Positions 302-21,099 of a DNA stretch of 38,377 nucleotides are shown one piece after another (within the stretch, counting starts at the first letter, position 1; every line of letters begins with the position of its first letter). This DNA comes from Gammaproteobacteria bacterium. Lineage in GTDB: Bacteria > Pseudomonadota > Gammaproteobacteria > Enterobacterales > Psychrobiaceae. A program made the translations under genes and the position numbers. The notes below the pieces were generated by a model, which had not been told where the DNA came from, made no database searches, and saw only the letters and a program-made list of their open reading frames with translations. The DNA is taken from positions 1 through 38,377 of the forward strand of contig JABSRU010000028.1 of NCBI GenBank assembly GCA_013214965.1, given 5' to 3'.

Positions 302-329
302 TTGAAATAAGTATGATAATCGTTATCAT
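302..329 (+). promoter_or_regulatory. suf promoter with a Fur box
   Basis: ATGATAA-TCG-TTATCAT at 313-329 is a perfect inverted repeat. It matches the 7-1-7 Fur consensus TGATAATnATTATCA closely, differing only at the centre. A TTGAAA (302-307) and a TATCAT (324-329) are 16 bases apart and could be the -35 and -10, so bound Fur would cover the -10. The site lies 31 bases before the sufA start. E. coli sufA is also Fur-repressed (established); here regulation is inferred from the site. Confidence 0.7.
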
Positions 330-359
330 TAGCGAAATTATTCCATGGGGTATTTTGAT

Positions 360-728
360 ATGTCCACTAACGTTAGTAGTTTCGATCCCAATGCACAAGA
401 GTGGCAAGGGTTAATCCTGACTCCAGCTGCCGGTCAGCAGATCTTTTCTTTACTTAAATTAGACTCAGAGTTACTTGGTGTGCGCTTAGCGGTGAAAAAA
501 TCTGGTTGCGCTGGTTTTGCTTATGATTTAAGCATGGCGCATCAGCAGCTAGCCGATGATTTAGTGTTTGCACAGGATGGCGGCAAGCTTTTTGTCGCAC
601 GAGAAATGATGATTTATGTCGACGGCACCACTGTTGATTATGTCTCGGTTGGTCTCAATAGCATGTTTACTTATACCAACCCTAAAGCGCAAGACGCTTG
701 TGGTTGTGGGGAAAGTTTTAGTGTTTAA
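360..728 (+). CDS. sufA: SufA, A-type Fe-S carrier protein
   Basis: A-type carrier that receives Fe-S clusters from the SufBCD scaffold and passes them to apo-proteins in the cytoplasm. The protein shows the three family cysteines: one in KKSGCAG and two in the C-terminal CGCGESF. I start at ATG 360 because GGGG at 347-350 stands 9 bases upstream. This gives 122 residues, the length of E. coli SufA. An in-frame ATG at 345 would add five residues but has no ribosome site. It is the first gene of sufABCDSE, behind a Fur box. IscA and ErpA are close relatives, but the operon context settles the call. Confidence 0.95.
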   Translation: MSTNVSSFDPNAQEWQGLILTPAAGQQIFSLLKLDSELLGVRLAVKKSGCAGFAYDLSMAHQQLADDLVFAQDGGKLFVAREMMIYVDGTTVDYVSVGLNSMFTYTNPKAQDACGCGESFSV

Positions 729-749
729 GCAAGTGATTGGGGCAATAAC

Positions 750-2210
750 ATGAGCGAGAGTGGCGTTGAAGTCCAGCAAGATATTCAAGATTGGGTCGAT
801 GATGAAAGCTATAAGCAGGGTTTTTTTACTGAGGTTGAGTCCGATCGCTTGCAGCAAGGGATCAATGAGCAGGTAGTTCGGGCTATTTCGGCGAAACGAA
901 ATGAACCACAATGGATGCTCGATTTTCGGCTTGAAGCCTTTAAAATTTGGCTGACCATGGAAGAACCCCATTGGTTAAAGGGTGAATATACGCCGTTGAA
1001 CTATCAAGAATACAGCTACTATTCTGCCCCGAGTTGCGATTCGGCGAGTTGCAACGATGGCGATGATGATGAGTTTTTGACCAAGGAAGTTGAAGAAGCC
1101 TTTAATCAACTTGGCGTACCGATTTCAGAACGGGATAATATTGCGGTTGATGCTATTTTTGATAGTGTTTCAGTGAAAACCACTTTTAGAGGTAAATTAG
1201 CCGAGCAAGGTATTATTTTTTGCTCTTTTAGTGATGCAATTCATCAATATCCCGAGTTGGTGCAGCAATACCTTGGCACGGTTGTGCCACCCAAAGATAA
1301 TTTCTTTGCGGCGTTAAATGCCGCTGTCGCCTCCGATGGCACTTTTGTTTATATTCCAAAAGGGATCCGTTGCCCGATGGAATTATCGACCTACTTTCGA
1401 ATTAACGCGGCTAAAACCGGACAATTTGAACGCACTATTTTGATTGCCGATGAAGGCAGTTATGTCAGTTATATCGAAGGTTGTTCAGCGCCATCCCATG
1501 ACAGTTATCAGTTACATGCCGCCGTGGTTGAGGTGATTATTCTTAAAGACGCCGAAGTGAAATATTCGACGGTGCAAAACTGGTATTCGGGTAAAGATAC
1601 CGCAGGCGGTATTCTTAACTTTGTGACTAAGCGAGCGGTTTGTCAGGGTTCTGGTTCGAAGATGTCTTGGACGCAGTCGGAAACAGGATCGGCGATTACG
1701 TGGAAATACCCTAGCATTATTTTAATTGGCGATAATTCGATTGGTGAGTTTTATTCGATTGCGCTGACTGCGGGTAAGCAACGTGCAGATACTGGCACTA
1801 AGATGATTCATATCGGTAAAAATACTCGCTCCACGATAATCTCGAAAGGGATTAGTGCAGGAATGAGTGAGAACACCTATCGCGGCTTGGTGAAAATTTT
1901 GCCCGGTGCCACTAATGCCCGTAATTTCACCCAATGTGATTCGATGCTGATTGGTGCCGATTGTGCGGCACATACTTTCCCTTACATTGAAGTTAAAAAC
2001 AGTAGCTCGCAAATTGAGCATGAAGCAACCACCAGTAAAATTGGTGAAGATCAGCTATTTTATTGTGCCCAGCGCGGCATCGCCGAAGAAGATGCAATTT
2101 CAATGATCGTTAATGGTTTCTGTAAGGATGTTTTTTCGGAACTGCCATTGGAATTTGCAGTAGAAGCTAAAAAATTATTGGCGATTAGCCTTGAAAATAG
2201 CGTTGGCTAG
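750..2210 (+). CDS. sufB: SufB, Fe-S cluster assembly scaffold subunit
   Basis: Core subunit of the SufBC2D complex, on which nascent Fe-S clusters are built from SufE-delivered sulfane sulfur. The 486 residues (E. coli 495) cover the N-terminal helical part, including a Cys-containing YYSAPSC segment, and the beta-helix core. Conserved elements include EGCSAP near residue 240, FTQCDSML with Cys396 (counterpart of the E. coli cluster cysteine) and the [16 protein letters not shown] stretch with the active glutamate. It follows sufA by 21 bases and precedes sufC by 11. Nothing is missing; the call is secure from near-identity of these blocks to E. coli SufB. Confidence 0.97.
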
Positions 2211-2221
2211 AAGGATTGAAA

Positions 2222-2968
2222 ATGTTAACAGTTAAAGACTTACACGCCAGCGTTGATGGCACCATGATTTTAAAGGGGATTAATTTGACGATTAACCCCG
2301 GTGAAGTACATGCGATTATGGGCCCTAATGGCTCAGGCAAAAGTACCTTAGCCAGTGTGCTAGCGGGTCGAGATAGTTATGAAATAGAATCGGGCAGTAT
2401 TGAATTTAAAGGGCAAGATTTGTTGGCGTTAGATCCCGATGCTCGCGCTGGTGAAGGGGTGTTTTTGGCCTTTCAATATCCGGTCGAAATCCCTGGGGTG
2501 TCAAATCAATTGTTTTTACAAGCAGCGATTAATTCAGTGCGCAAATACCAGGGGCTAGAAGCGTTAGATCGTTTTGATATTGTTGATCTGATTGATGAAA
2601 AAATTGAATTGCTTAATATGCCGAAAGATTTATTGCAGCGTTCGGTCAATGTTGGTTTTTCCGGCGGTGAAAAAAAGCGTAACGATATTTTACAAATGGC
2701 GGTGCTCGATCCAACATTATGTATTTTAGATGAAACTGATTCAGGGCTAGATATTGACGCGCTTAAAGAAGTTTCACATGGGGTGAATAGCCTGCGTGAT
2801 GGTAAACGGGCCTTTATTATTGTCACTCACTATCAGCGGATACTCGATTATATTAAACCTGACTTTGTGCATGTGTTAGCCAATGGAAAAATCGTTAAAT
2901 CAGGGGATTTCTCGATGGTCGCTAAGCTAGAGGCACAAGGCTATGGTTGGATTGGTCATGACGAATAG
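2222..2968 (+). CDS. sufC: SufC, ABC-type ATPase of the Suf scaffold
   Basis: Cytoplasmic ABC ATPase that drives conformational change of SufB-SufD during cluster assembly; it is not a transporter. It shows the Walker A GPNGSGKST, the Q-loop FQYPVEIPG, the signature FSGGEKKR, the Walker B CILDETDSGLD and the H-switch VTHYQR. ATG 2222 follows AAGGA (2211-2215) at six bases and gives 248 residues, exactly the E. coli length. An in-frame TTG at 2216 is less likely. The 3' end overlaps sufD. Confidence 0.97.
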   Translation: MLTVKDLHASVDGTMILKGINLTINPGEVHAIMGPNGSGKSTLASVLAGRDSYEIESGSIEFKGQDLLALDPDARAGEGVFLAFQYPVEIPGVSNQLFLQAAINSVRKYQGLEALDRFDIVDLIDEKIELLNMPKDLLQRSVNVGFSGGEKKRNDILQMAVLDPTLCILDETDSGLDIDALKEVSHGVNSLRDGKRAFIIVTHYQRILDYIKPDFVHVLANGKIVKSGDFSMVAKLEAQGYGWIGHDE

Positions 2969-4190
2969 CGCACAACAGGTTTTTGAGCAATTATATCAGC
3001 AGCAAGCGAAAATTGCTGATCAAGCGAGTTGGCAACAAGCGATAGCAACGGGTTTCGCCAAGCCAACCGACGAAGATTGGCGTTACACTAAACTCGATGA
3101 TTTTTTTCAGCTCGATTTTAAGCTAAGCATCCCAAGCGTTGTTTCCGCGCAGCAAGTACAAGCGCTGGCATTACCGCTCGACAGCTATTTGTTGGTATTT
3201 GTTAATGGCGAGTATCAATCACATTTAAGCAGTGACGATCTTGGTCCCTTCACGATCAGTGAATTAGGCATTGAGCGATCGCCCGCGATTGCCGCTGAAA
3301 TTTTCCAGCTCATTAGCGAAAGCTTTACTCGTCATCCGCAGCATATTCGGTTAGCGAAAAATACGATGGCGACTAAGCCGCTGCATTTTTTGCACATTAA
3401 CAATGGTGATGGAGGCATGAGTCATAGCTACAATAATGTGTCGATTGAGCAAGGCGCACAGTGTGTGGTGATCGAGCAGTTTGTTAATTTAGAGCCACAC
3501 CAGCCCAGTCAATTTAATGGTGCGCGTTTAGTCTTTAATATCGCTGATAATAGCAAGCTCGAACATTATAAGTTGTGCTTGCAAGAGAGTAGTTATCATT
3601 TTGGCCATAACGATTTGCATATTGGTCGAGATTGTCAGGTTAGTAGCATGAGCTTTTTATTGGCCGGGGCATTAATTCGTCATCATTGCAGCGCGATCCA
3701 TCATGGTGAAAACAGTCAATTAACCATTAACAGTTTAGCCTTGCCCAGTGGTAATCAAACCTATGACTCGCGCAGTTTTCTTGAGCATAAAGTGGGTCAT
3801 TGTCATAGTAAACAACTGCATAAAAACATTGTGCAGGATCAGGCAAATGCCGTGTTTAATGGCATGATTAAAGTGGCTAAAGGCGCACTGAAAACCGATG
3901 GCAAGATGGACAATCACAACTTGCTCTTGAGTGAAACCTGTCAAATTAACAGTAAGCCACAACTAGAGATTTATGCCGACGATGTCCTGTGTGGTCATGG
4001 CACCACCACTGGCGCACTTAACCCTGAGCAAATATTTTATCTTCAAACTCGCGGCATTAATAAAGTCGCAGCCGAGCAGATGATTACCTTTGCTTTTGCT
4101 GCACAATTAAGCGATGCGATTAAGCTGCCAGCCGTGCAAAGTTGTGTGCTAGCCCATATCTCTAAAAAATTGGCCGAGGTGTTGTCATGA
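2958..4190 (+). CDS. sufD: SufD, Fe-S cluster assembly subunit
   Basis: Partner of SufB in SufBC2D, needed for iron acquisition by the scaffold. The N-terminal half is variable. The C-terminal half has the family core: [11 protein letters not shown] and [15 protein letters not shown], with the Cys and His that match the functional pair of E. coli SufD, then [12 protein letters not shown] prefer ATG 2958, which overlaps sufC by 11 bases and gives 410 residues (E. coli 423). An in-frame ATG at 2943 would add five residues. The stop overlaps the sufS start as ATGA, which points to translational coupling. Confidence 0.95.
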
Positions 4191-5419
4191 GTTATCCAAT
4201 TGAACAAATTCGCAGCCAGTTTCCGATTTTGCAACAGCAGGTTAATGATAAGCCGTTGGTATATCTCGACAGTGGGGCTACCGCGCAAAAACCCTTACAG
4301 GTGTTAAGCCGGATCGATGAATTTTATCGTCAGCAAAATGCCGCAGTACATCGTGGCGTGCATCAGCTGAGTAGTGAAGCTACCACGATGATGGAACAAG
4401 TGCGTGATAAGGTTCAAGGTTTTATTGGAGCAAAACAGCGCGATGAAATTGTGTTTGTCCGTGGTGCAACGCAAGCAATTAATCTGGTTGCCAGTAGTTT
4501 TGGCGGCAGTCATTGGCAAGCCGGTGATGAGATTATTATTACCGAAATGGAGCATCACGCCAATATTGTGCCGTGGCAGCTATTGGCCGAACGCCTTGAG
4601 CTAACATTAGTTATTTGGCCCATTGAAGCAGATGGCCGTTTGGCCACCGCAACGTTGCAGCGGCTATTAACTCAACGGACACGGTTGTTAGCGGTCACCC
4701 ATGTCTCGAATGTGTTGGGTACGGTTAATCCTATCGCCGAAATTGTTAAATTATGTCGAGATAATCAAACGTTAACCTTAATAGATGGCGCGCAAGCAGT
4801 GATGCATCACCGGGTTGATGTTCAAGCGCTCGATTGTGATTTCTATTTGTTTTCGGGTCATAAACTTTACGCGCCAACGGGCAGTGGCATTCTTTACGGC
4901 AAGCTGGCGTTATTAGAAAGTATGCCGCCGATGGAAGGTGGCGGGGCGATGATTACTGAGGTTGATCTGGTCACTGGCAGTAAGTTTGCCAAGCCTCCCT
5001 ACCGTTTTGAGGCAGGTACCCCGAACACTTGTGCCATTATCGGCTTAGGTAGCGCCATTGATTATATTGAGCAAGTTGGCCTCGATAATATTGCCGAATA
5101 TGAACAGGGCTTAATGGCTTACGCGTTAACGCAATTAGGATCAGTTGATTTGCTGAAAATTTATGGTGAGATGCCGCTGAGTGAACGTGCTGGGGTGATT
5201 GCGTTTAATCTTGACGGTATTCATGCGCTTGATGTCGGGACGTTTTTAGATCGTTATGGCATTGCTATCCGTACTGGTCATCATTGTGCGATGCCGCTGC
5301 TTAAGCATTATCAGCAAAGTTCGATGTGTCGGCTGTCGATTGCGATGTATAACGACAAAAGTGAAATAGATGCCTTGGTCGCAGGGTTAACCCGTATTGT
5401 GCGGTTGTTAGGGAAGTAG
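4187..5419 (+). CDS. sufS: SufS, cysteine desulfurase
   Basis: PLP-dependent group II desulfurase that removes sulfur from L-cysteine as a persulfide and hands it to SufE. Visible marks are the PLP lysine Lys226 in [12 protein letters not shown], the [11 protein letters not shown] block, DGAQAVMHH, and the catalytic Cys367 in RTGHHCAMP, the SufS/CsdA pattern rather than the IscS one. Its 410 residues compare with 406 in E. coli. It overlaps sufD by four bases and ends one base before sufE, so the desulfurase and its acceptor are made together. CsdA is the alternative by sequence, but the operon argues for SufS. Confidence 0.96.
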
Positions 5420-5420
5420 A

Positions 5421-5819
5421 ATGGATCAACAAAAACTATTAAAAAACTTCGGTCGTTGTCACGATTGGGAAGAAAAATATCTTTATTTAATTGAGTTAGG
5501 TGAAAAATATGCCACCTTGCCTGAGTCGGATCAAGTGCCTAAATATACGGTCACTGGTTGCCAGAGTCAGGTCTGGATTAAAGTGAGCGTGGTAGATGGC
5601 AAGGTGTTATTGAGCGGTAATAGTGATGCCGCTATCGTTAAAGGCTTGGTGGCGATGCTGTTGATTTTATTGCAACAGATGAGTCCAGCTGAGTTAATGG
5701 CGTTTGATATTAATGGTGTGCTTGATCGGCTCGATCTTAAACAGCAAATCACCCCCACTCGTAATCAGGGCATGGCGGCGATGTTAACGGCTATTTATAG
5801 TCAGTTAAGCGTTATTTAA
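5421..5819 (+). CDS. sufE: SufE, sulfur acceptor for SufS
   Basis: Takes the persulfide from SufS on its own cysteine and passes it to SufB, stimulating SufS. The key residue is Cys47 in VTGCQSQVW, on the exposed loop typical of the family; VPKYTVTGC before it is also conserved. Its length of 132 residues compares with 138 in E. coli. It is the last gene of the suf operon, only one base after sufS. Downstream lie two hairpins and then a convergent gene, so transcription probably ends there. Confidence 0.95.
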   Translation: MDQQKLLKNFGRCHDWEEKYLYLIELGEKYATLPESDQVPKYTVTGCQSQVWIKVSVVDGKVLLSGNSDAAIVKGLVAMLLILLQQMSPAELMAFDINGVLDRLDLKQQITPTRNQGMAAMLTAIYSQLSVI

Positions 5820-6008: not shown

Positions 6009-7679
6009 TTAACCCTCACAAGCCTTACATTGGCGCTTTTGATTGAGTTGTTGGGCGGCATTCATGCTGTGTTGATAATAAAGCGCCTTAATCCCCATTT
6101 TCCATGCGCTGATATACAGTTGATTAATCTCTTTTATTGGGGTGTCTGGATGCACCATGACGTTGAGGGATTGTCCTTGGTCGATATAGGTTTGGCGGGT
6201 CGCGGCTTGATTAATCACGCTCATTTGATCTAGTTCGGCAAAGGTTTTAAACACTTCTTTGGCGTCGTCACTTAAAAAACTAAGTTGTTGTACTGAGCCG
6301 TCATGATCGCGAATGTTACGCCATACTTCTTTGCTATTTTGACCAATTTCTTCTAATAACAATTCTAAAAATGGATTTTTAATCGTGGTTTTCAATTTTG
6401 CGATATCTTTGACATAGCAATTTGACCAAATCGGTTCGATACCTTGCGAGACTTGGCCGAGAATAAAGGCCGATGAAGTCGTCGGCGCTAGCGCATTAAG
6501 GGTCGCATTGCGTCGTCCGTAACCGCGCAGTAGCTCTGGCTCACCTAGTAGTTGGGCTAACTGAGTTGAAGCATCGTAGGATTGTTGTTTGATCTGTTTA
6601 AAAATCTCTAAATTAAGTTTGGCGGCTTCGCGTCCTTCCCAGGCTAACATTTTTGATTGCAATAACGAGTGCCAGCCCAGCACACCAACACCTAAGGCAC
6701 GATTAGCTTTGGCAAATCGATACGCTTTTTCCATAAACAAAAAGGTTAGTTGGTCATCGCGGGCGTCGCTGTCACGTAATGTTTCGAGTTTTTCGAGAAA
6801 CTCGCTGTTTACCGCATCTAAAAAGTAGACCAATGTTTGCACCGCGTCAGTGTCTTTCCAACGTTCATAATGCAGTAAATTGATTGACGATAACACACAG
6901 ACAAAAGACCATTTATCGCTGCTCGGTAACATGATTTCGCTACAGAGATTACTGGCTTTGATCTTCATATTATGATCTTTGTAGACATCGACGGTATTGT
7001 TATTGGCGTTATCGCTAAACAAAATATAGGGATAACCCATTTCACCACGACGTTGTAATACCTTGGCCCACAGGGTGCGCTTGTCGGCGTCGCCATCAAT
7101 CATTTGTCGCATCCATTGATCGGTTACGGTAATGCCGTGGGTTAGCTCTTGAATCGGGTTGCCTTCGGTACCAAGATTTAAAAACTCGTTGGCGTCGGGA
7201 TGTTCAATCGGTAAATAAGGTGCAAAGCGACCACGACGCACCGAGCCTTGGCTCACGACATCGACCATGGTTTCAAACAGTTGCATAAAATGCACCGCAC
7301 CGGATGAATGACCATCATTACTAATAGGCGCACCACGACCCCGTAAATGACCAAAATAGCCGGAAGTGCCACCGCCTAATTTTGACATCATGCCAATTTC
7401 GGCTTCACTAAATAAAATGCCGCCAATATCGTCATCGATACTCGAACCATAACAGCTCACTGGTAGGCCGCGTTTGCGACCAAAGTTAGACCAAATAGGT
7501 GAGGCGAGGGAGAAAAAACCTTGCTCCATATAGCCGTAAAATTTATCACTAAAACCGCTAATACCTAAAATTTGTTCAGCGCGATCGGCGATGTTGCGGA
7601 TCCGTTGTTCGGCGCTTTCGCCGGCTTCAAGGTAGCCACTGGCTAAAAACTGGCGGCTGTTTGGGGTTAACCATTGCAT
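6009..7679 (-). CDS. nrdA: Class I ribonucleotide reductase, large (alpha) subunit lacking an ATP-cone
   Basis: Catalytic subunit that reduces ribonucleoside diphosphates to the deoxy forms. The active site is complete: Cys76 (LPVSCYGSS) and Cys261 (SFVCVLSS) are the redox pair, Asn244-Cys246-Glu248 (NLCSEI) the radical cysteine and its partners, and Tyr534-Tyr535 (ALYYQHS) the radical-transfer pair. The C-terminal CKACEG (Cys551, Cys554) serves regeneration by thioredoxin or glutaredoxin. The protein has only 556 residues, and the N-terminus begins almost directly at the catalytic domain, so the usual ATP-cone is absent. The start has GGAAA a few bases upstream. It lies 30 bases after nrdB in the same operon. 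The missing cone is explained by nrdB. Confidence 0.9.
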   Translation of the reverse strand: MQWLTPNSRQFLASGYLEAGESAEQRIRNIADRAEQILGISGFSDKFYGYMEQGFFSLASPIWSNFGRKRGLPVSCYGSSIDDDIGGILFSEAEIGMMSKLGGGTSGYFGHLRGRGAPISNDGHSSGAVHFMQLFETMVDVVSQGSVRRGRFAPYLPIEHPDANEFLNLGTEGNPIQELTHGITVTDQWMRQMIDGDADKRTLWAKVLQRRGEMGYPYILFSDNANNNTVDVYKDHNMKIKASNLCSEIMLPSSDKWSFVCVLSSINLLHYERWKDTDAVQTLVYFLDAVNSEFLEKLETLRDSDARDDQLTFLFMEKAYRFAKANRALGVGVLGWHSLLQSKMLAWEGREAAKLNLEIFKQIKQQSYDASTQLAQLLGEPELLRGYGRRNATLNALAPTTSSAFILGQVSQGIEPIWSNCYVKDIAKLKTTIKNPFLELLLEEIGQNSKEVWRNIRDHDGSVQQLSFLSDDAKEVFKTFAELDQMSVINQAATRQTYIDQGQSLNVMVHPDTPIKEINQLYISAWKMGIKALYYQHSMNAAQQLNQKRQCKACEG

Positions 7680-7709
7680 AAAAATTTCCGTATCTGTGGT
7701 GGTCGCGTC

Positions 7710-8984
7710 TTAAAAAAGATCGTCGCTGGTGACGCTTTTGCTGCGTTTGTTGTAGTTGATTGAGCGTTTAACAAAAAAGTCGCCATGTTTGGTGGCAATG
7801 ATCTCGTCATCGAACCACTCGGTTTGTTCAACTAGCGCTTGATCGACACTAAACACTGGCGCAATATCAATGCTAGCGAGCGAGTTATTAAAACGATTTT
7901 TTATGAACTCTTTCACTTGTTGCTTGGGTAAAAAATCTAATTCACCATCACTAAAGATCCAGTCAATAATTTGTGCCTCGGCGTCATAGGCTTCAATGCA
8001 CAATTGTTGGACTTGCGCGGTATGTGCGTCGTCGAACCAGCTGGGGTTTTCTTGCTTAATTATTTTAATTAAATCGATCCCAAAATTACCGTGAATTTGC
8101 TCTTCTTTTGACGTCGCTTCCACGACATTTGAGATGCCCTTGAGCCGATTTTGGTGCTTATTGAAGGACATGATGATTAAAAACTGTGAAAATAGCGATA
8201 CATGTTCAATAAACAGCGCAAACAACAAGATTGACTCGGAAAATTCGCGGTTTTCATCGCTGCTAGCGTGTTTAAGTGCTGCCTCTAAATAGTTGACTCG
8301 ACTCATGATCGCAGGGTTTTCAGCGAGTTTCTCAAACTCGTCATTTAGTCCTAATAATTCCAATAGATGAGAGTAGGCATCGTGATGGCGAACTTCTGAC
8401 TCGGCAAAGGTTGCGCCGATGGCACCAATTTCTGGTTTTGGCATTTTTTGATAAATATTGCCCCAAAAACTTTTCACTGCCACTTCAATTTGTGAAATAG
8501 CCAGCATAGTGCGTTTGATCGCTTGGCATTCATGAGCGGCTAAATGTATTTTGAAATCTTGAATGTCACTGGTGAAATTAAATTCGGTGTGGATCCAATA
8601 GGAGTGGCGAATGGCATCGACATACTCCAATAAGTCCGGATATTCGTAGGGTTTGAGATTAAGACGTTTTTCAAAGATATTATGCTGGCGCTTATGGGCT
8701 TGGGCATCACGATATAAAATATATGCCTTGGCAGCTTGGTGAAAATCCGATGACATCAACTGATCTTCGATAATATTTTGAATCCCTTCAATTGACGGGG
8801 TATAGCGGCTATCAATTTTTTTCATCGAGCTTAGTACCGCGAGTACTTGGATGGTGATTGTTTTAGCATCGGTTGGAGAACCAACACCGACGGCCGCCAT
8901 CGCTTTGGTAATCGCCGCCGTTATTTTGCTATCGAAAAATGGCTTGAGAGTGCCATCTCTTTTTACAACATTCGTTATTTTCAT
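7710..8984 (-). CDS. nrdB: Ribonucleotide reductase radical (beta) subunit with an N-terminal ATP-cone
   Basis: Ferritin-like subunit that holds the dimetal centre and starts the radical. Residues about 3-95 are an ATP-cone: VVKRDGTLKPFFDSKI at the front, then IEGIQNIIEDQLM and AKAYILYRD. This domain normally sits on NrdA. The ferritin-like part has candidate metal ligands Glu167, Glu197, His200, Glu260, Glu295 and His298, and Tyr204 sits where the E. coli radical tyrosine (Tyr122) is. Glu167 replaces the usual Asp of E. coli NrdB. The 424 residues exceed E. coli's 376 because of the cone. Known cases such as Leeuwenhoekiella blandensis NrdB use the cone to switch activity by beta-subunit oligomerisation and may use manganese; that this protein does so is inferred. 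A promoter and an inverted repeat lie upstream. Confidence 0.92.
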   Translation of the reverse strand: MKITNVVKRDGTLKPFFDSKITAAITKAMAAVGVGSPTDAKTITIQVLAVLSSMKKIDSRYTPSIEGIQNIIEDQLMSSDFHQAAKAYILYRDAQAHKRQHNIFEKRLNLKPYEYPDLLEYVDAIRHSYWIHTEFNFTSDIQDFKIHLAAHECQAIKRTMLAISQIEVAVKSFWGNIYQKMPKPEIGAIGATFAESEVRHHDAYSHLLELLGLNDEFEKLAENPAIMSRVNYLEAALKHASSDENREFSESILLFALFIEHVSLFSQFLIIMSFNKHQNRLKGISNVVEATSKEEQIHGNFGIDLIKIIKQENPSWFDDAHTAQVQQLCIEAYDAEAQIIDWIFSDGELDFLPKQQVKEFIKNRFNNSLASIDIAPVFSVDQALVEQTEWFDDEIIATKHGDFFVKRSINYNKRSKSVTSDDLF

Positions 8985-8997
8985 AACTGGCTCAAAT

Positions 8998-9050
8998 CTT
9001 AATGGTTATCATTTGCCATTAAGAATAGCGATAAATAAACTGCAAATCAA
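8998..9050 (-). promoter_or_regulatory. nrdBA promoter and a perfect inverted repeat
   Basis: On the minus strand TTGATT (9050-9045) and TATTCT (9027-9022) are 17 bases apart, a plausible sigma-70 promoter. CTTAATGG (8998-9005) and CCATTAAG (9016-9023) are perfect 8-bp inverted arms with a 10-base spacer. They overlap the edge of the -10 and the expected transcription start, and lie 14-39 bases before the nrdB ATG. The repeat does not match the NrdR box consensus as I know it. It may be an operator or a 5'-UTR hairpin. Confidence 0.5.
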
Positions 9051-9484: not shown

Positions 9485-10396
9485 CAATGTGATGCATGCC
9501 ATTAGGTACATGCCTGTCATGGTGATTGGCCAGTAAAGCCAACACTGCCTTTAGTACCGGGTCATGAAGGCGTTGGGGAGATTGTTGAGATTGGTGCGGA
9601 AATTCATCATCTCAAGCTAGGAGATCGAGTCGGGATCCCTTGGCTGTATTCTGCTTGTGGTCAATGTGATTACTGCCTTGAAGGCCGGGAAACTCTGTGC
9701 CTTGAGCAACAAAATGCGGGTTATTCTATTGATGGTTCATTTGCCGAATATTGTCTAGCAAATGGCGAATATGTGGTTAAAGTACCCGATGGTTTAAGTT
9801 CTGTCGATGCTGCACCACTGTTTTGTGCTGGAGTCACGACCTACAAAGCGCTTAAAGTTAGTGAGGTTAAACCGGGGCAGTGGATGGCCATTGTTGGTGT
9901 TGGTGGTTTAGGTCATCTTGCTATTCAATATGCGGTGGCAATGGGGATGAAAGTTATCGCCGTTGATACCGGCCAAGAAAAAATGGCGTTGGCTAAAAAG
10001 CTCGGCGCGGTTCATTGCATTGATTTTATGCAGGATAAGCCGTCTGAAAAAATCAAAGAATTGATTGGTGGTGTTCATGGTGTGGTCTGTACTGCCGCTT
10101 CTAAAGTAGCCTTTGAAGAGTCTTATCGATCGGTCCGCCGTGGTGGAACTTTTGTGTTAGTTGGCTTACCACCGGAAGAAATGCCAGTACCAATTTTCGA
10201 TACTGTGCTCAATGGCATCAAATTAGTTGGTTCCATTGTAGGTACCCGTAAAGATCTTAAAGAATGTCTGCAATTTGCCGCAGACGGCAAAGTGAAAGCG
10301 ATTATTGAAGTAAAATCAATGAATGACATCAATGAGATATTTAGCGATATGGAGCAGGGTGAAATTACCGGCCGTGTCGTGATAAGTATGGAATAG
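9485..10396 (+). pseudogene. 5'-truncated zinc alcohol dehydrogenase (adhP-like) remnant
   Basis: A medium-chain Zn alcohol dehydrogenase lacking roughly the first 35 residues; no start codon precedes the homology. The first recognisable codons read QCDACH, then an in-frame TAG at 9503-9505, then [12 protein letters not shown], where AdhP relatives have CHTDLH; the catalytic-zinc region is therefore damaged. The rest is open to 10396. It shows GHEGVGE, the structural-zinc cysteines in [15 protein letters not shown], and the Rossmann motif [17 protein letters not shown] at 9773 could start a 207-residue product, but that would lack both zinc sites, so I regard the locus as dead. The preceding gene ends only about 30 bases upstream. 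Confidence 0.8.
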
Positions 10397-12550: not shown

Positions 12551-13169
12551 ATGAATAACAACATGATAGTGTCAATTGTAGTCGAGGGGTCGCTGATGAC
12601 CTGCGAGTCAACGAATAATATTATTATTCTTCTGAAAATGTTTGATATGGATATTGAACTACACACATTCGACGGCTATGAACCCAATTTGAGTTTGCAG
12701 GCTGATTGGGTTTTTTAGATGCAAGTCTCTATAATTTAAATGATTGTGGAAATTCAGAATTTGCTAAAATAACGCTAACTTCTAATCTCACTATTTTAAT
12801 GCAACACGACAATGTACGTCAGAACATTCCTGTCTGCTCGCAGGCATTAAAGGGGGGGGTTATAGCGACGATCGGTTAGAGCTTGTGATGAAAGGACTGA
12901 CATCGGTATTCAGTCGGGAATTATGGTTTACTAGAGAAGTGCTTAATGACGTTATTATATATTTATTAAATACCAACTGCGTACCAAGTAAAAAACAATT
13001 AATTTCACCGAAAAAAGTATTAACTAAACAAGAGATGATAATAACTAATATGGTATGTCAGGGTTCGAGAAATAACGAAGTTGCTGCTAGCCTAAACATT
13101 AGTGCTCATACTGTAAATACACATATCCATAATGTCTATCGAAAAACGGATTCACATAATCGTGTTCAA
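12551..13169 (+). pseudogene. Broken VpsT/CsgD-like LuxR-family regulator
   Basis: Joined across frames, this is a LuxR-type regulator. The N-terminal degenerate receiver part (MNNNMIVSIVVEGSL and onward) runs into a T6 run (12711-12716), where the frame shifts to FLDASLYNLND. A G8 run (12852-12859) shifts it again to YSDDRLELVMKGL. The joined product then has WFTR (12924-12935), which fits the W[FLM][TS]R c-di-GMP-binding motif of VpsT. The helix-turn-helix follows: LTKQEMIITNMV, NNEVAASLNISAHTVNTHIHNVYRK. It is cut at NRVQ (13169), where the sequence becomes antisense to the protease PKD domain. Two homopolymer slips and a lost C-terminus make it a pseudogene unless slippage is used. Confidence 0.75.
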
Positions 13170-13170
13170 C

Positions 13171-15133
13171 CACGTGTTGACCTTCGGCTGTCGAACCGTC
13201 GCCAAAATCCCAGCTAATTTTAGTCAACCAGCCATCGCTGTCGGTAGTGCTATCCGTAAACTTAACCTTTAGTTTGTCTGGAGCCCAGAAAAAATCAACA
13301 ATCGGTGCGACATTCGGAGCTTCAAAGTGGGTTGCAAGTAATTTAACGTTTTGATAGGACGTGTGGCCATGGACGCCTACATACCAGTTACCTGGCATGT
13401 CTTTAGCCACGGTGACTTTACAATTGTTATTATTACCTGATTTGAATGTTCGACAATAAGAAGATACGCTACTTGGAAGTAGATTTTTTCGAATAGCGAT
13501 ATTGGCATTTTCGTTGCTGCTATCACCATCAGATAGAGAGAAATTCAGATTGTTTGTGCCTTTAGGAACGGTAATTTTATAGTACTTAGTAGTGCCGTGC
13601 TCACCGGATATCACTTGAGCGACCTTGTTGACTAGCTCTACGGTGTCGGCCGGTGGCAGCGGAGGCAGCGGAGGTGAACAAGGGGTGATCCCTACCGCTT
13701 CAAAGGCTGTTACCACATCGGCTTTACTATATTTTAAATCCTTAGCGGCTTTTTTTGCCCCACAAGCGCCTTGATACATCAAACTGTTCTTCGTCCAATA
13801 GAGTTTGTTCGCAATTCCAAAGGGTATGAATGCTTTCTTAGGATCCCACCCTGATAAGTGAGCCAAGGTATAATATGCTTTGTTGAATATACCCGATGAG
13901 AAATGAACATTTATACCATCAGAATAATCTTTGTAATGCCCAAGAGAGCGCCCATCTTTAGTTGGATCTTCGAAATGACGCATCGCTTCTTTATTTTTCA
14001 TTACCGCTGCGCCAGTCAGCCAGTCGACTTTGCCGTTCACATAAAATTCTGTTGCTTCTGCAGCGATATCAGAATAGGCTTCATTCATGCCACCAGACTC
14101 ATTTTCATACTTTAAATTAGAGTATCGTTCTGTATAGCCATGAGATGCTTCATGAGCGACAATATTGAGTGTTGTGAGTGGATACATGTCATTGAACACT
14201 AAATGTCCACCGCCCCAGAATGCGTTGTGGACGTTTTTCCCATAATGGACAATCTGAAGTAACTTACCAATGATTGGGGTATCGTTGAGGTAGTCTTTAT
14301 ACATATTAAGTGTGGCTTGACCGAAGAAGTGCGCATCGTTTAGGGGGCTATATGCGCCGTTAATCTCTTTGTGGGTGTTCTCTGGGCAGGGGATATCATC
14401 ACCAGATGTTTGATGTTTGCGTCGACCGTTATCACGCCATCGGATAATAGCTCACAATCATTACCGTCTACGGTAACATTAAACTTGGGGTAGTCGACTC
14501 CGTATTGATATTTCCCTATTTTAATATTGCCACCAGGTCCGGTGCCGACCGCGTCAAAAGTAAGACCATTCCATTTCTGTAGTATTTTTTCCGTGTTTGC
14601 GTCTATTCGAACATATGGCCGAGCCGGTGTATTGCCAAAGATTACATAATTGACTTCATAAACATATTGAGCAGTGTTGGTTGAATCAATGTGTATTTTC
14701 AGCTCGACATTGGTGTTTTTGGCACGTTTTGTTGTTTGGCTATTTTTTGTATCTCTAGTGCCTGTTTTTTGGTGATAATATTTTGCTTGTTTTTTAAGTC
14801 ATTTTTAAGTTCGGTAACGACAAACCCTGATAGATTACGCTTAGCTCCATGCTTAGTGACATCAGCGACCACGGCATAGTTCTCAACTTCGACACCGCCA
14901 TAGTATTGTTGTAGTTTTTATTTTTTCTGTCCTGAGGGCAATGTGTGTTCGACCGCTGTTCGTAGGTCGATTGTTTCCCCGTTGATAGTGAAAAATGAAT
15001 GGCCACTGCGGGTCATCGTGTTGTTGATATTGGTTAACTTGTTGGCATCTTGAATCGTCGCTGCATATACTTGTGACGCAATGGCCAATGTTAATAAACT
15101 GGATAATGTTGTAATTTTTGTTTTTAATAACAT
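13171..15133 (-). pseudogene. Disrupted vibriolysin-like M4 metalloprotease (5' and catalytic part)
   Basis: A secreted thermolysin-family (M4) zinc protease gene, broken. It begins at ATG 15131-15133 behind GGAGA, with a signal peptide ending in SQVYA^A. The propeptide is stopped by an in-frame TAA at 14918-14920, after LPSGQKK; the same frame continues as KLQQYYGGVEVENY. Frameshifts follow near 14720 and near 14420. The catalytic part is then open from 14304: AHEASHGYTE (zinc HExxH), GGMNEAYSD (third ligand Glu) and DGINVHFSSGIFN (catalytic His). A Pro-rich linker, a PPC-like beta domain and the first half of a PKD domain (WDFGDGSTAEGQHV) come next. There the gene breaks off; its tail lies at 10720-11400. 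Such enzymes are typical type II secretion cargo. Confidence 0.85.
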
Positions 15134-15361
15134 TTGTATTCTCCGCTCTTTAGCGTTATTGCTAAGAATGATGATGTTTGTCCTTACTAAGTGCTTAATA
15201 GTTATTATTAGAAATAGAAGGATGTAGCCATTCTATTGGATATTTTTTGTACTTTATATCGTGTGTTTCTGTGATTTTTAATACGTTAATTGATAAGTGT
15301 GGTATATATTTAGTAGATGAATTTGTTACCAATCGTTACCAAAAGTCTGGGAGGTATAATT
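15134..15361. other. Divergent intergenic region between the protease remnant and fpr
   Basis: Very AT-rich. It holds a short CGCT/AGCG hairpin next to the protease ribosome site and a direct repeat of GTTACCAA (15325-15332 and 15335-15342) just before the fpr ribosome site. No gene, and no promoter that I can place with confidence. Confidence 0.35.
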
Positions 15362-16105
15362 ATGGCGAAGTGGATTAAAGCTAAAGTTATTGAAAATATA
15401 CAGTGGCATTCTCGCTTGTTTAGTTTGCGAATTGAAGCTGATTTACCACCTTTCATGGCGGGGCAATTTACCAAATTAGCATTGGAAATTAATGGTGCTC
15501 GGTTAGCCCGTGCTTACTCTTTTGTTAACTCACCTAATCAGTCGATTCATGAATTTTATTATGTCAGCGTTGACGATGGCGGTTTGTCTCCGCAATTGGC
15601 TAAATTGACCGTCGGTGACTCGGTACTGGTGTCAGAACAAGCCAGTGGATTCTTCACTTTAGATGATATTCCTGCGGGCAAGGAGTTGTGGTTGCTGTCG
15701 ACTGGGACTGCAATCGGTCCCTATTTATCAATATTAGCGACAGCTGGCTTAGTCGAACGCTTTGAATATATTGTGCTGGTTCATTGTGTGCGTCATTTAG
15801 AAGATTTAAGTTACCGCAGTGAAATAGCAGACTTAGTCGAACAATACCGTGGCAGGCTAGTTTATCTACCTATTGTTACTCGCCAGGTTCAGCCTGAGAT
15901 GTTATCGGAGCGTGTACCGAGCTTGATTGAGAATGGTTTGTTGGCAGCAAAGGCCAAGGTTGATTTAGATCCTGACACCAGTCAGGTGATGATTTGTGGT
16001 AATCCTGAGATGGTGCGTGCCACCACAGAGATGTTATTATCGCTCGGCTTCAGTAAAAATTTACGTCGGGCACCGGGTAATATAACGGTCGAGAATTATT
16101 GGTAA
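15362..16105 (+). CDS. fpr: Ferredoxin/flavodoxin-NADP+ reductase
   Basis: FAD enzyme that passes electrons between NADPH and ferredoxin or flavodoxin in the cytoplasm, feeding Fe-S biogenesis and redox defence. Motifs are RAYSFVNSP (FAD), LSTGTAIGPYLSIL (NADP pyrophosphate), MICGNPEMV, and the C-terminal ENITVENYW-like end, here NITVENYW, with the aromatic last residue of bacterial FPRs. I start at ATG 15362, seven bases after GGGAGG (15349-15354), for 247 residues (E. coli Fpr 248). A longer reading from 15317 has no ribosome site. The MAPEG gene follows after 30 bases. Confidence 0.93.
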   Translation: MAKWIKAKVIENIQWHSRLFSLRIEADLPPFMAGQFTKLALEINGARLARAYSFVNSPNQSIHEFYYVSVDDGGLSPQLAKLTVGDSVLVSEQASGFFTLDDIPAGKELWLLSTGTAIGPYLSILATAGLVERFEYIVLVHCVRHLEDLSYRSEIADLVEQYRGRLVYLPIVTRQVQPEMLSERVPSLIENGLLAAKAKVDLDPDTSQVMICGNPEMVRATTEMLLSLGFSKNLRRAPGNITVENYW

Positions 16106-20107: not shown

Positions 20108-20223
20108 AAGGGTTAATGATAATAATTCTCGAACAGTTTTACGATTGATTACATTCTTCGCAGTAAATTTATAATAAGCTCTCATCATAATGAGACTTTT
20201 AGGCTAGGTATACGAAATTACAG

Positions 20224-21099
20224 ATGGATAGATTGACAGATATAGTAAAAGCATTGCCTCTTAACATTGTGTTAATCACTAAAGCTATTATTTTTTTATT
20301 GATTATTATTGTTAGTTATCAACTCGCTAAAATCACTTGGTTAATTGTAGACCCTGTTACTGTGGTGCCGTCGTCATGGCAATTACCTCGTCCTAATGAT
20401 AGTAACAATCAATCCGCTAGTATTGATTTTTCTGGTTATCAGTGGTTTGGACAATTTAATGCCGAAGCGAATCAGCCAAAAGCTGAACCTAAACAAGTCA
20501 CTGATGCCCCTGAAACTCGGCTTAAATTAACTCTATCTGGCTTGGTGGCTAGCTCAGTTCCTGAAAATTCCATGGCGATTGTCGAATATCAAGGTAAGCA
20601 AGCAACTTATGTCATCGATGAGAAAATCACCGGGACACAGGCAGTCATTCATGAAATTCACCCCGATCGATTGATTTTAAAGAATCGTGGTAAGTATGAA
20701 ACGTTAATGCTCGATGGCTTCGATTATAATGAACAGCCAACGGCTTCTAATCCTAAAATAAATAATAATCGTAACGGGTTGTCAAAAGACTTGGCACAAA
20801 CTCGTGATGAAATTTTAAAAAACCCTGGAAAAATCACTGATTATATTTCGATTACTCCGGTGCGCGGTGATAAGAATAAACTTAAAGGTTATCGCTTAAA
20901 TCCGGGGCGTGACTCTAGTTTGTTTAGACAGTCAGGGTTGAAACAAAATGATTTGGCGGTGGCAATTAATGGTTATGACTTAACTGATTTTAGTGCATCA
21001 CTTAAAGTAATGAATGAACTAAAGAGCATGACTGATATCTCAATTAGTGTTGAGCGCGATGGTCAGATCGTCGATATTCAATTTGCTATTTCTCAATAA
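20224..21099 (+). CDS. gspC: GspC, type II secretion inner-membrane clamp protein
   Basis: Links the inner-membrane platform to the GspD secretin and takes part in cargo recognition. One membrane helix near residues 17-40 (ITKAIIFLLIIIVSYQLAKITWLIV). The periplasmic HR domain follows at about 95-160 (LTLSGLVASSVPENSMAIVEYQGKQATYVI), and a C-terminal PDZ-like domain from about 215 (ISITPVRGDKNKLKGYRLNPGRD onward). 291 residues, normal length. First gene of a twelve-gene gsp operon; the ribosome site is weak. The gspD start lies 35 bases after its stop. Confidence 0.92.
   Translation: MDRLTDIVKALPLNIVLITKAIIFLLIIIVSYQLAKITWLIVDPVTVVPSSWQLPRPNDSNNQSASIDFSGYQWFGQFNAEANQPKAEPKQVTDAPETRLKLTLSGLVASSVPENSMAIVEYQGKQATYVIDEKITGTQAVIHEIHPDRLILKNRGKYETLMLDGFDYNEQPTASNPKINNNRNGLSKDLAQTRDEILKNPGKITDYISITPVRGDKNKLKGYRLNPGRDSSLFRQSGLKQNDLAVAINGYDLTDFSASLKVMNELKSMTDISISVERDGQIVDIQFAISQ

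Follow-up and report, generated by a model that had tools for sequence, protein, structure and literature searches.

A class Id ribonucleotide reductase with its ATP-cone on the beta subunit in a gammaproteobacterium, and Fur-box-like sites before the operon in part of its lineage

We analysed a stretch of 38,377 nucleotides (contig JABSRU010000028.1 of a gammaproteobacterium placed in the Psychrobiaceae; hereafter the window) and found that it carries, on the minus strand, an operon for a ribonucleotide reductase (RNR) whose ATP-cone sits on the radical-generating beta subunit NrdB and not on the catalytic alpha subunit NrdA. From its sequence we read this enzyme as a horizontally acquired class Id RNR (NrdAi/NrdBi) with an overall-activity switch on beta, a reading to which we assign a probability of about 0.9; this figure covers the identity of the enzyme and its switch, and not the control by Fur discussed below. 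The operon consists of two complete open reading frames (ORFs), nrdB (7710-8984, 424 aa) and nrdA (6009-7679, 556 aa), separated by a gap of 30 bp. Pfam matched PF03477, the ATP-cone, to residues 5-95 of NrdB (8700-8972; 71.6 bits against a cut-off of 25.8, E = 8e-20, profile positions 2-86 of 88) and PF00268, the R2-like radical-generating core, to residues 107-381 (7842-8666). The same search of the 556-aa NrdA returned two RNR large-chain domains only, the N-terminal one under its cut-off (25 vs 28 bits), and no ATP-cone, and a cone on NrdA was accordingly rejected. An earlier reading of the bare sequence (the original prediction) had placed a full ATP-cone at about residues 3-95 of beta and none on the 556-residue alpha. 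Both statements are confirmed: the Pfam cone falls within NrdB residues 1-95, and NrdA has none.

NrdA scored above the cut-offs of TIGR02510, NrdE-prime (725 bits, cut-off 602), which we took as equivalent to NrdAi, and of NF006577 (665 bits); none of the NCBIfam beta-subunit models passed its cut-off with NrdB (best, 148 vs 237 bits). A cone-free alpha subunit of 556 aa has the minimal form of class Id, for which the length data in PMC9531940 give a median of 565 aa. The best solved relatives were 5olk for NrdB (E = 5.3e-193) and the alpha chains of 6dqx (E = 7.6e-206) and 6dqw for NrdA. The match table gives no organism for 5olk, which according to the papers is NrdB of Leeuwenhoekiella blandensis; the 6dqx and 6dqw alpha chains are presumably of class Id. 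NrdA also retains Cys76, Cys246, Cys261, the pair Tyr534-Tyr535 and the tail cysteines Cys551/Cys554, whose roles we take to be those usual in RNRs.

Over 423 ungapped positions NrdB and 5olk share 279 identities (66%), which bears out the likeness to the L. blandensis family proposed originally. The metal ligands of NrdB (Glu167, Glu197, His200, Glu260, Glu295 and His298) and the nearby Lys171, Trp174, Tyr204 and Thr291 are identical to 5olk at 10/10 positions. In L. blandensis numbering, these ligands are Glu170, Glu200, His203, Glu263, Glu298 and His301, and the nearby residues are Lys174, Trp177, Tyr207 and Thr294, all of which bind or surround two Mn ions according to PMC6754362 and PMC5794259. 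All ten positions were invariant in an NrdB alignment of 82 rows, comprising the window, 80 loci from a named genome collection (the best 80 of 404 confirmed matching stretches) and one genome from a sample of the same order (G043). The subclass descriptions in PMC6754362 give, as the signature of class Id, a most N-terminal metal ligand that is Glu and not Asp and, for NrdBi, a conserved Trp in place of the NrdBk Tyr, with a subgroup Lys three residues upstream of the Trp; the class Id passage of PMC8463856 names the Tyr/Glu pairing as its mark. In the window protein the first ligand is Glu167, and Trp174 and Lys171 occupy the other two positions; Tyr204 and Thr291, the residues of the class Id Tyr-Thr hydrogen bond away from the metals, are both present in the sequence. 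Because these five residues are in place, an Mn2 cofactor of class Id type is predicted for NrdB. Glu167 as first ligand and the kept Tyr204 had been pointed out in the original prediction, and both are seen in the alignment to 5olk; it had left the choice between Fe and Mn open, but the combination of the two residues is the published class Id signature and speaks for Mn2. By homology, beta would carry an Mn2(IV,III) oxidant, formed from MnII and superoxide without NrdI. NrdI was not among the Pfam matches of the 30 other ORFs of the window, no genome-wide search for it having been made.

The cone of the L. blandensis protein binds two dATP and drives formation of beta4, as described in PMC5794259, and PMC8350387 adds that inhibition may be steric. 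Seven of the nine cone positions compared with 5olk are identical (Glu73, Asp74, Met77, Lys86, Ile89, Arg92 and Arg99), and the two differences are Leu90 for Ile93 and Asn70 for Asp73; at the position of Glu73 the paper text has Asp76, and the 5olk chain letters read Glu76. By homology with that protein, ATP in the cone would leave beta dimeric and permit an active alpha2beta2 complex, and dATP would make the cones stick together, yielding beta4 and inactive alpha-beta complexes.

The type of enzyme was described in 2018, and what the window adds is a gammaproteobacterial example and a hint of regulation by Fur. The L. blandensis NrdAi/NrdBi (5olk, 6sf4/6sf5), as presented in eLife 2018 (PMC5794259), likewise has the cone on NrdB, none on NrdA and the same metal-site residues. 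The window enzyme differs from it in its gammaproteobacterial host and clade, in Asn70, in a Fur-like promoter site, and in its partner RNR: here a canonical class I enzyme whose NrdA bears the cone, in L. blandensis a class II enzyme (same source). The NrdBi of Facklamia ignava also combines a class Id core with an ATP-cone, and in the accounts given in PMC6187632 and PMC6754362 it carries an extra glutaredoxin domain, of which Pfam found none in the window NrdB. The class Id RNRs of Flavobacterium johnsoniae and Actinobacillus ureae likewise have the class Id core and a minimal alpha. We take the A. ureae beta subunit to be without an ATP-cone. That of F. johnsoniae has none according to the section of PMC6754362 that deals with it, unlike the window NrdB.

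We then asked where cone-bearing class Id enzymes occur. The closest NrdB proteins among the best 80 collection matches came from Hydrogenovibrio sp. UBA650 (L010, 78% identity), a Thiotrichales metagenome-assembled genome (MAG; L011) and gammaproteobacterium UBA7957 (L012; 75% each), and two Veronia, V. pacifica and V. nyctiphanis (L013 and L016; 72 and 71%). Among the others were Gracilibacteria and two further unplaced bacterial MAGs; the remainder were Bacteroidota, chiefly Flavobacteriaceae. In a sample of the order, 14 of 394 genomes matched NrdB at 1e-60, through the cone only in the window's genome and G043; in a sample of the class the figure was 3 of 369, through the cone in the window's genome and G451. 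The 13 remaining relatives of these two samples matched only from residue ~78-102 on, with 51-55% NrdB identity. The contig of G451 (C78), a genome of the same class as the host, proved to be the Thiotrichales contig in reverse complement, so that the expectation of a gammaproteobacterial example held; its two loci (L142, and L179, which is L011 reversed) were left out of the trees. None of eight same-genus genomes, five of them at least 93% complete, had an NrdB match at E 0.001, which supports the gain by transfer that had been suggested as possible.

The tree of NrdB and NrdA together (33 chosen loci and the window, rooted on cone-less relatives, with nine NrdA rows read at <500 aa) placed the seven gammaproteobacterial cone-bearing rows, namely the window, G043, Hydrogenovibrio, the Thiotrichales MAG, UBA7957 and the two Veronia, in one group (98/100) beside Bacteroidota rows (95/94). 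NrdB alone (35 chosen loci and the window) grouped the same seven (86/90). A recent gain from flavobacteria was rejected on this grouping and on identity, the best Bacteroidota protein among the 80 reaching ~71% and the best gammaproteobacterial one 78%. We read the distribution as probably reflecting patchy transfer, chiefly among gammaproteobacteria. Mobile sources of the window copy were rejected as well: none of 153 phage records reached 60% (the best had 59.8%, covering 85% of the query), nor did any of 46 plasmid records, and among viral contigs (best 80 of 134) identity went up to 72% in matches confined to the core and did not exceed 58% in those running through the cone. Several viral contigs (L197, L202, L205-L207 and others) encode NrdB relatives of 51-58% that match through the ATP-cone. 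The survey in PMC5794259 counts 93 RefSeq cone-bearing NrdB sequences in several phyla and viruses; our literature search on class Id with gammaproteobacteria found no paper. The order nrdB-nrdA had been singled out as the reverse of that in E. coli. The order itself stands, but its oddity does not, because 78/80 cone-bearing loci share it, together with 10/13 relatives matching without the cone; nrdA-nrdB is found in both Veronia and in the other 3/13.

The host genome (95.7% complete, contamination estimate 3.25%) also contains the second, canonical nrdAB that had been proposed as a check. On contig C55, one further small and one further large subunit lie adjacent, the large one bearing the cone, so that a single genome holds both this canonical class I enzyme and a class Id RNR with its ATP-cone on beta. 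This fits the statement in PMC5794259 that all species with a cone-bearing NrdB also encode other RNRs. A short cone protein on contig C115 (a 154-aa open frame) is probably NrdR, and NrdD, searched in the host genome, was not found. Two NrdR-like boxes, each with 2-3 mismatches and spaced by 31 bp, lie upstream of the canonical nrdA, a number of boxes equalled in 29/200 shuffles of the stretch; the box pattern and spacing used throughout are those we take to be typical of NrdR.

The presence of two RNRs raises the question of when the class Id enzyme would be used. Scanning with the 19-base E. coli Fur consensus, with p values against Markov resamples, we found a 14/19 site (8998-9016, minus strand; p = 0.02) that precedes the nrdB start codon by 13 bp. 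Overlapping sites of 14 + 14 precede the G043 operon (p = 0.02), and 15 + 15 precede each of the operons of V. pacifica and V. nyctiphanis (p = 0.004 and 0.003), where they stand before the first gene despite the reversed gene order. Four of the seven gammaproteobacterial operons therefore have a site of at least 14/19 (3/6 if Veronia is counted once), and the UBA7957 operon has one of 13/19 (p = 0.04). The canonical nrdA has no comparable upstream site (best 11/19, p = 0.97). No NrdR-like box above 12/16 was found upstream of the operon in the window, UBA7957 or Veronia, and NrdR control of the window operon was rejected (best 11/16 upstream, no box near nrdB). As for the regulator, the host genome encodes a Fur-family protein (PF01475, 157 bits), and 19 of its places reach 16/19, compared with 2 when the pattern is reversed. 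One of these 19 belongs to two overlapping sites (15/19 + 16/19, offset 6; 309-333, plus strand) before a suf cluster, a pair that 0/1000 resamples equalled. The window as a whole holds six sites of at least 14/19, against 2.0 expected. The Fur-like sites before four of seven operons, without NrdR boxes in the window and Veronia, suggest an iron-starvation back-up; single sites are weak, and the pattern is moderate evidence that the class Id enzyme may be under Fur in part of the lineage.

On this basis we put forward, tentatively and at close to an even chance, that iron-loaded Fur would repress nrdBA and that the class Id enzyme would take over from class Ia when iron is short. This resembles E. 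coli nrdHIEF, a Mn enzyme expressed on Fur derepression at low iron according to the class Ib passage of PMC8463856, although nrdHIEF belongs to another subclass, with a tyrosyl radical and the NrdI activase. Nearly an even bet, too, is the wider proposal that the lineage moved between distant gammaproteobacterial genera as an iron-starvation module, a class Id counterpart of nrdHIEF, in which a Mn2/superoxide RNR with a dATP brake on beta would relieve the iron enzyme upon Fur derepression while control shifted among NrdR (L011), the two regulators together (G043) and Fur (window, Veronia). Our literature search on class Id and Fur found no link drawn: the Fur passage of PMC8463856 concerns class Ib, and the class Id passages of the review PMC9936198 are silent on it. 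The same passages of that review call it unclear how, in vivo, a class Id enzyme would compete for superoxide.

A quite possible alternative, somewhat short of an even chance, is that the same enzyme is constitutive or under a control other than Fur, for instance by redox stress, and serves as a plain spare RNR with no role in iron shortage. Several observations on the sites lean that way. The window site is weak when taken alone, as 14/19 was reached by 5 of 72 upstream regions in the host genome, nrdB included (ORFs of at least 150 aa in nine stretches), and by 9 of 93 in the genus (21 partly overlapping loci). Neither Hydrogenovibrio (best 13/19, far upstream, p = 0.19) nor the Thiotrichales MAG (best 12/19, p = 0.27) has a Fur-like site near the operon, and the latter operon has instead two NrdR-like boxes (16/16 and 15/16) 31 bp apart; UBA7957 stops at 13/19. 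Two further points count against our main reading: one of ten relatives without a cone match also reaches 14/19 (L140, 16/19 in an AT-rich repeat), and a genome search found no Nramp-type transporter for Mn supply. Against this alternative stand the stronger overlapping pairs before the G043 and Veronia operons, with two-site sums of 28, 30 and 30 against 26 in the window, and the scarcity of sites of at least 14/19 before non-gammaproteobacterial operons (1/74), an imperfect control given that many such hosts may use another Fur motif. Four loci with too little upstream DNA (L082, L130, L131 and L132) were left out of these counts. The Hydrogenovibrio operon, moreover, has a TonB receptor gene on one side and, on the other, beyond a YceI-like gene, a ChaN-like haem-uptake gene; the receptor gene and the ChaN-like gene both have 15/19 sites.

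NrdR-like boxes elsewhere comprise one before the G043 operon (16/16) and one before that of Hydrogenovibrio (14/16); at the level of at least 14/16 they occur in 5/10 relatives without a cone match (L133, L134, L135, L141 and L143) and 3/74 non-gammaproteobacterial operons. At the G043 locus (L156, 10777-10861) the perfect box and the overlapping Fur-like sites stand together before the same nrdBA operon, and the nrdB start codon is uncertain there because the longest frame (TTG, 10782) just touches the box. Apart from the RNR genes, a 16/19 Fur-box-like site lies at 20112-20130, upstream of a type II secretion cluster (gspC at 20224), and a comparable site (15/19) stands before the corresponding ORF at L158, a locus of the same genus. 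At three more loci of the host genome with strong Fur-like sites, a listing of ORFs gave none in one and three in the other two.

Turning from control of the operon to the switch itself, the NrdB cone could be vestigial or structural, with no regulation of activity. The cone stretch is less conserved with respect to 5olk (47/97) than the rest of NrdB (232/326), and Asn70 replaces an Asp (Asp73) that in L. blandensis is described as linked to Arg95 by an internal salt bridge. Asn70 is found in 7/7 gammaproteobacterial rows and 4/75 others, so that tetramer strength may differ in this group, a point that counts against the main reading. Nevertheless, 21 cone positions, including Lys8, Arg9, Lys86, Arg92 and Arg99, are invariant in 82/82 aligned rows, and the cone is retained in all seven gammaproteobacterial rows; we therefore regard a cone without regulatory function as quite improbable and retain the overall-activity switch on beta.

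Convergent with nrdBA, and not part of the enzyme, is a complete suf Fe-S assembly cluster identified by Pfam (SufA-like, SufB, C, D, S and E; 345-5819, plus strand). The host genome has a second sufS on contig C123, 43% identical to that of the window; the best sufS match in same-genus genomes is 46%, and among the same-genus stretches fetched only that of G001 has a divergent suf cluster (SufB 61%). From ~15.3 kb rightward the contig agrees with the genus: window 16.5-36.4 kb has piecewise matches in 8/8 same-genus genomes, with ~64-84% identity in the large pieces, MAPEG stands beside pckA in six of the eight, and Fpr (15317-16105) is there in G004 only. As the window starts at the contig end, the left border of the suf-nrdBA stretch lies outside view. 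Contamination or a chimeric join foreign to the genome would fit the contamination estimate, the lack of NrdB and of closer sufS matches in the genus, genus stretches beside pckA that are unlike window 1-15 kb (though they end ~1.5-4.6 kb past the shared genes) and a nrdA G+C of 45% against 39-43% in seven of eight longer stretches sampled and in window 16.5-36.4 kb, but it is extremely improbable and was rejected on the genus-shared flank and on tetranucleotide composition, window 1-11 kb correlating with stretches of its own genome at 0.51-0.73 and these with each other at 0.47-0.81.

Between the operon and this flank, a zinc alcohol dehydrogenase frame adjoins nrdB (9506-10396), seemingly without its N-terminus. 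At 13099-15232 on the minus strand there is an M4-type peptidase match whose main frame lacks much of the catalytic domain, with more open frames upstream; this locus may be a decayed gene or reflect assembly errors.

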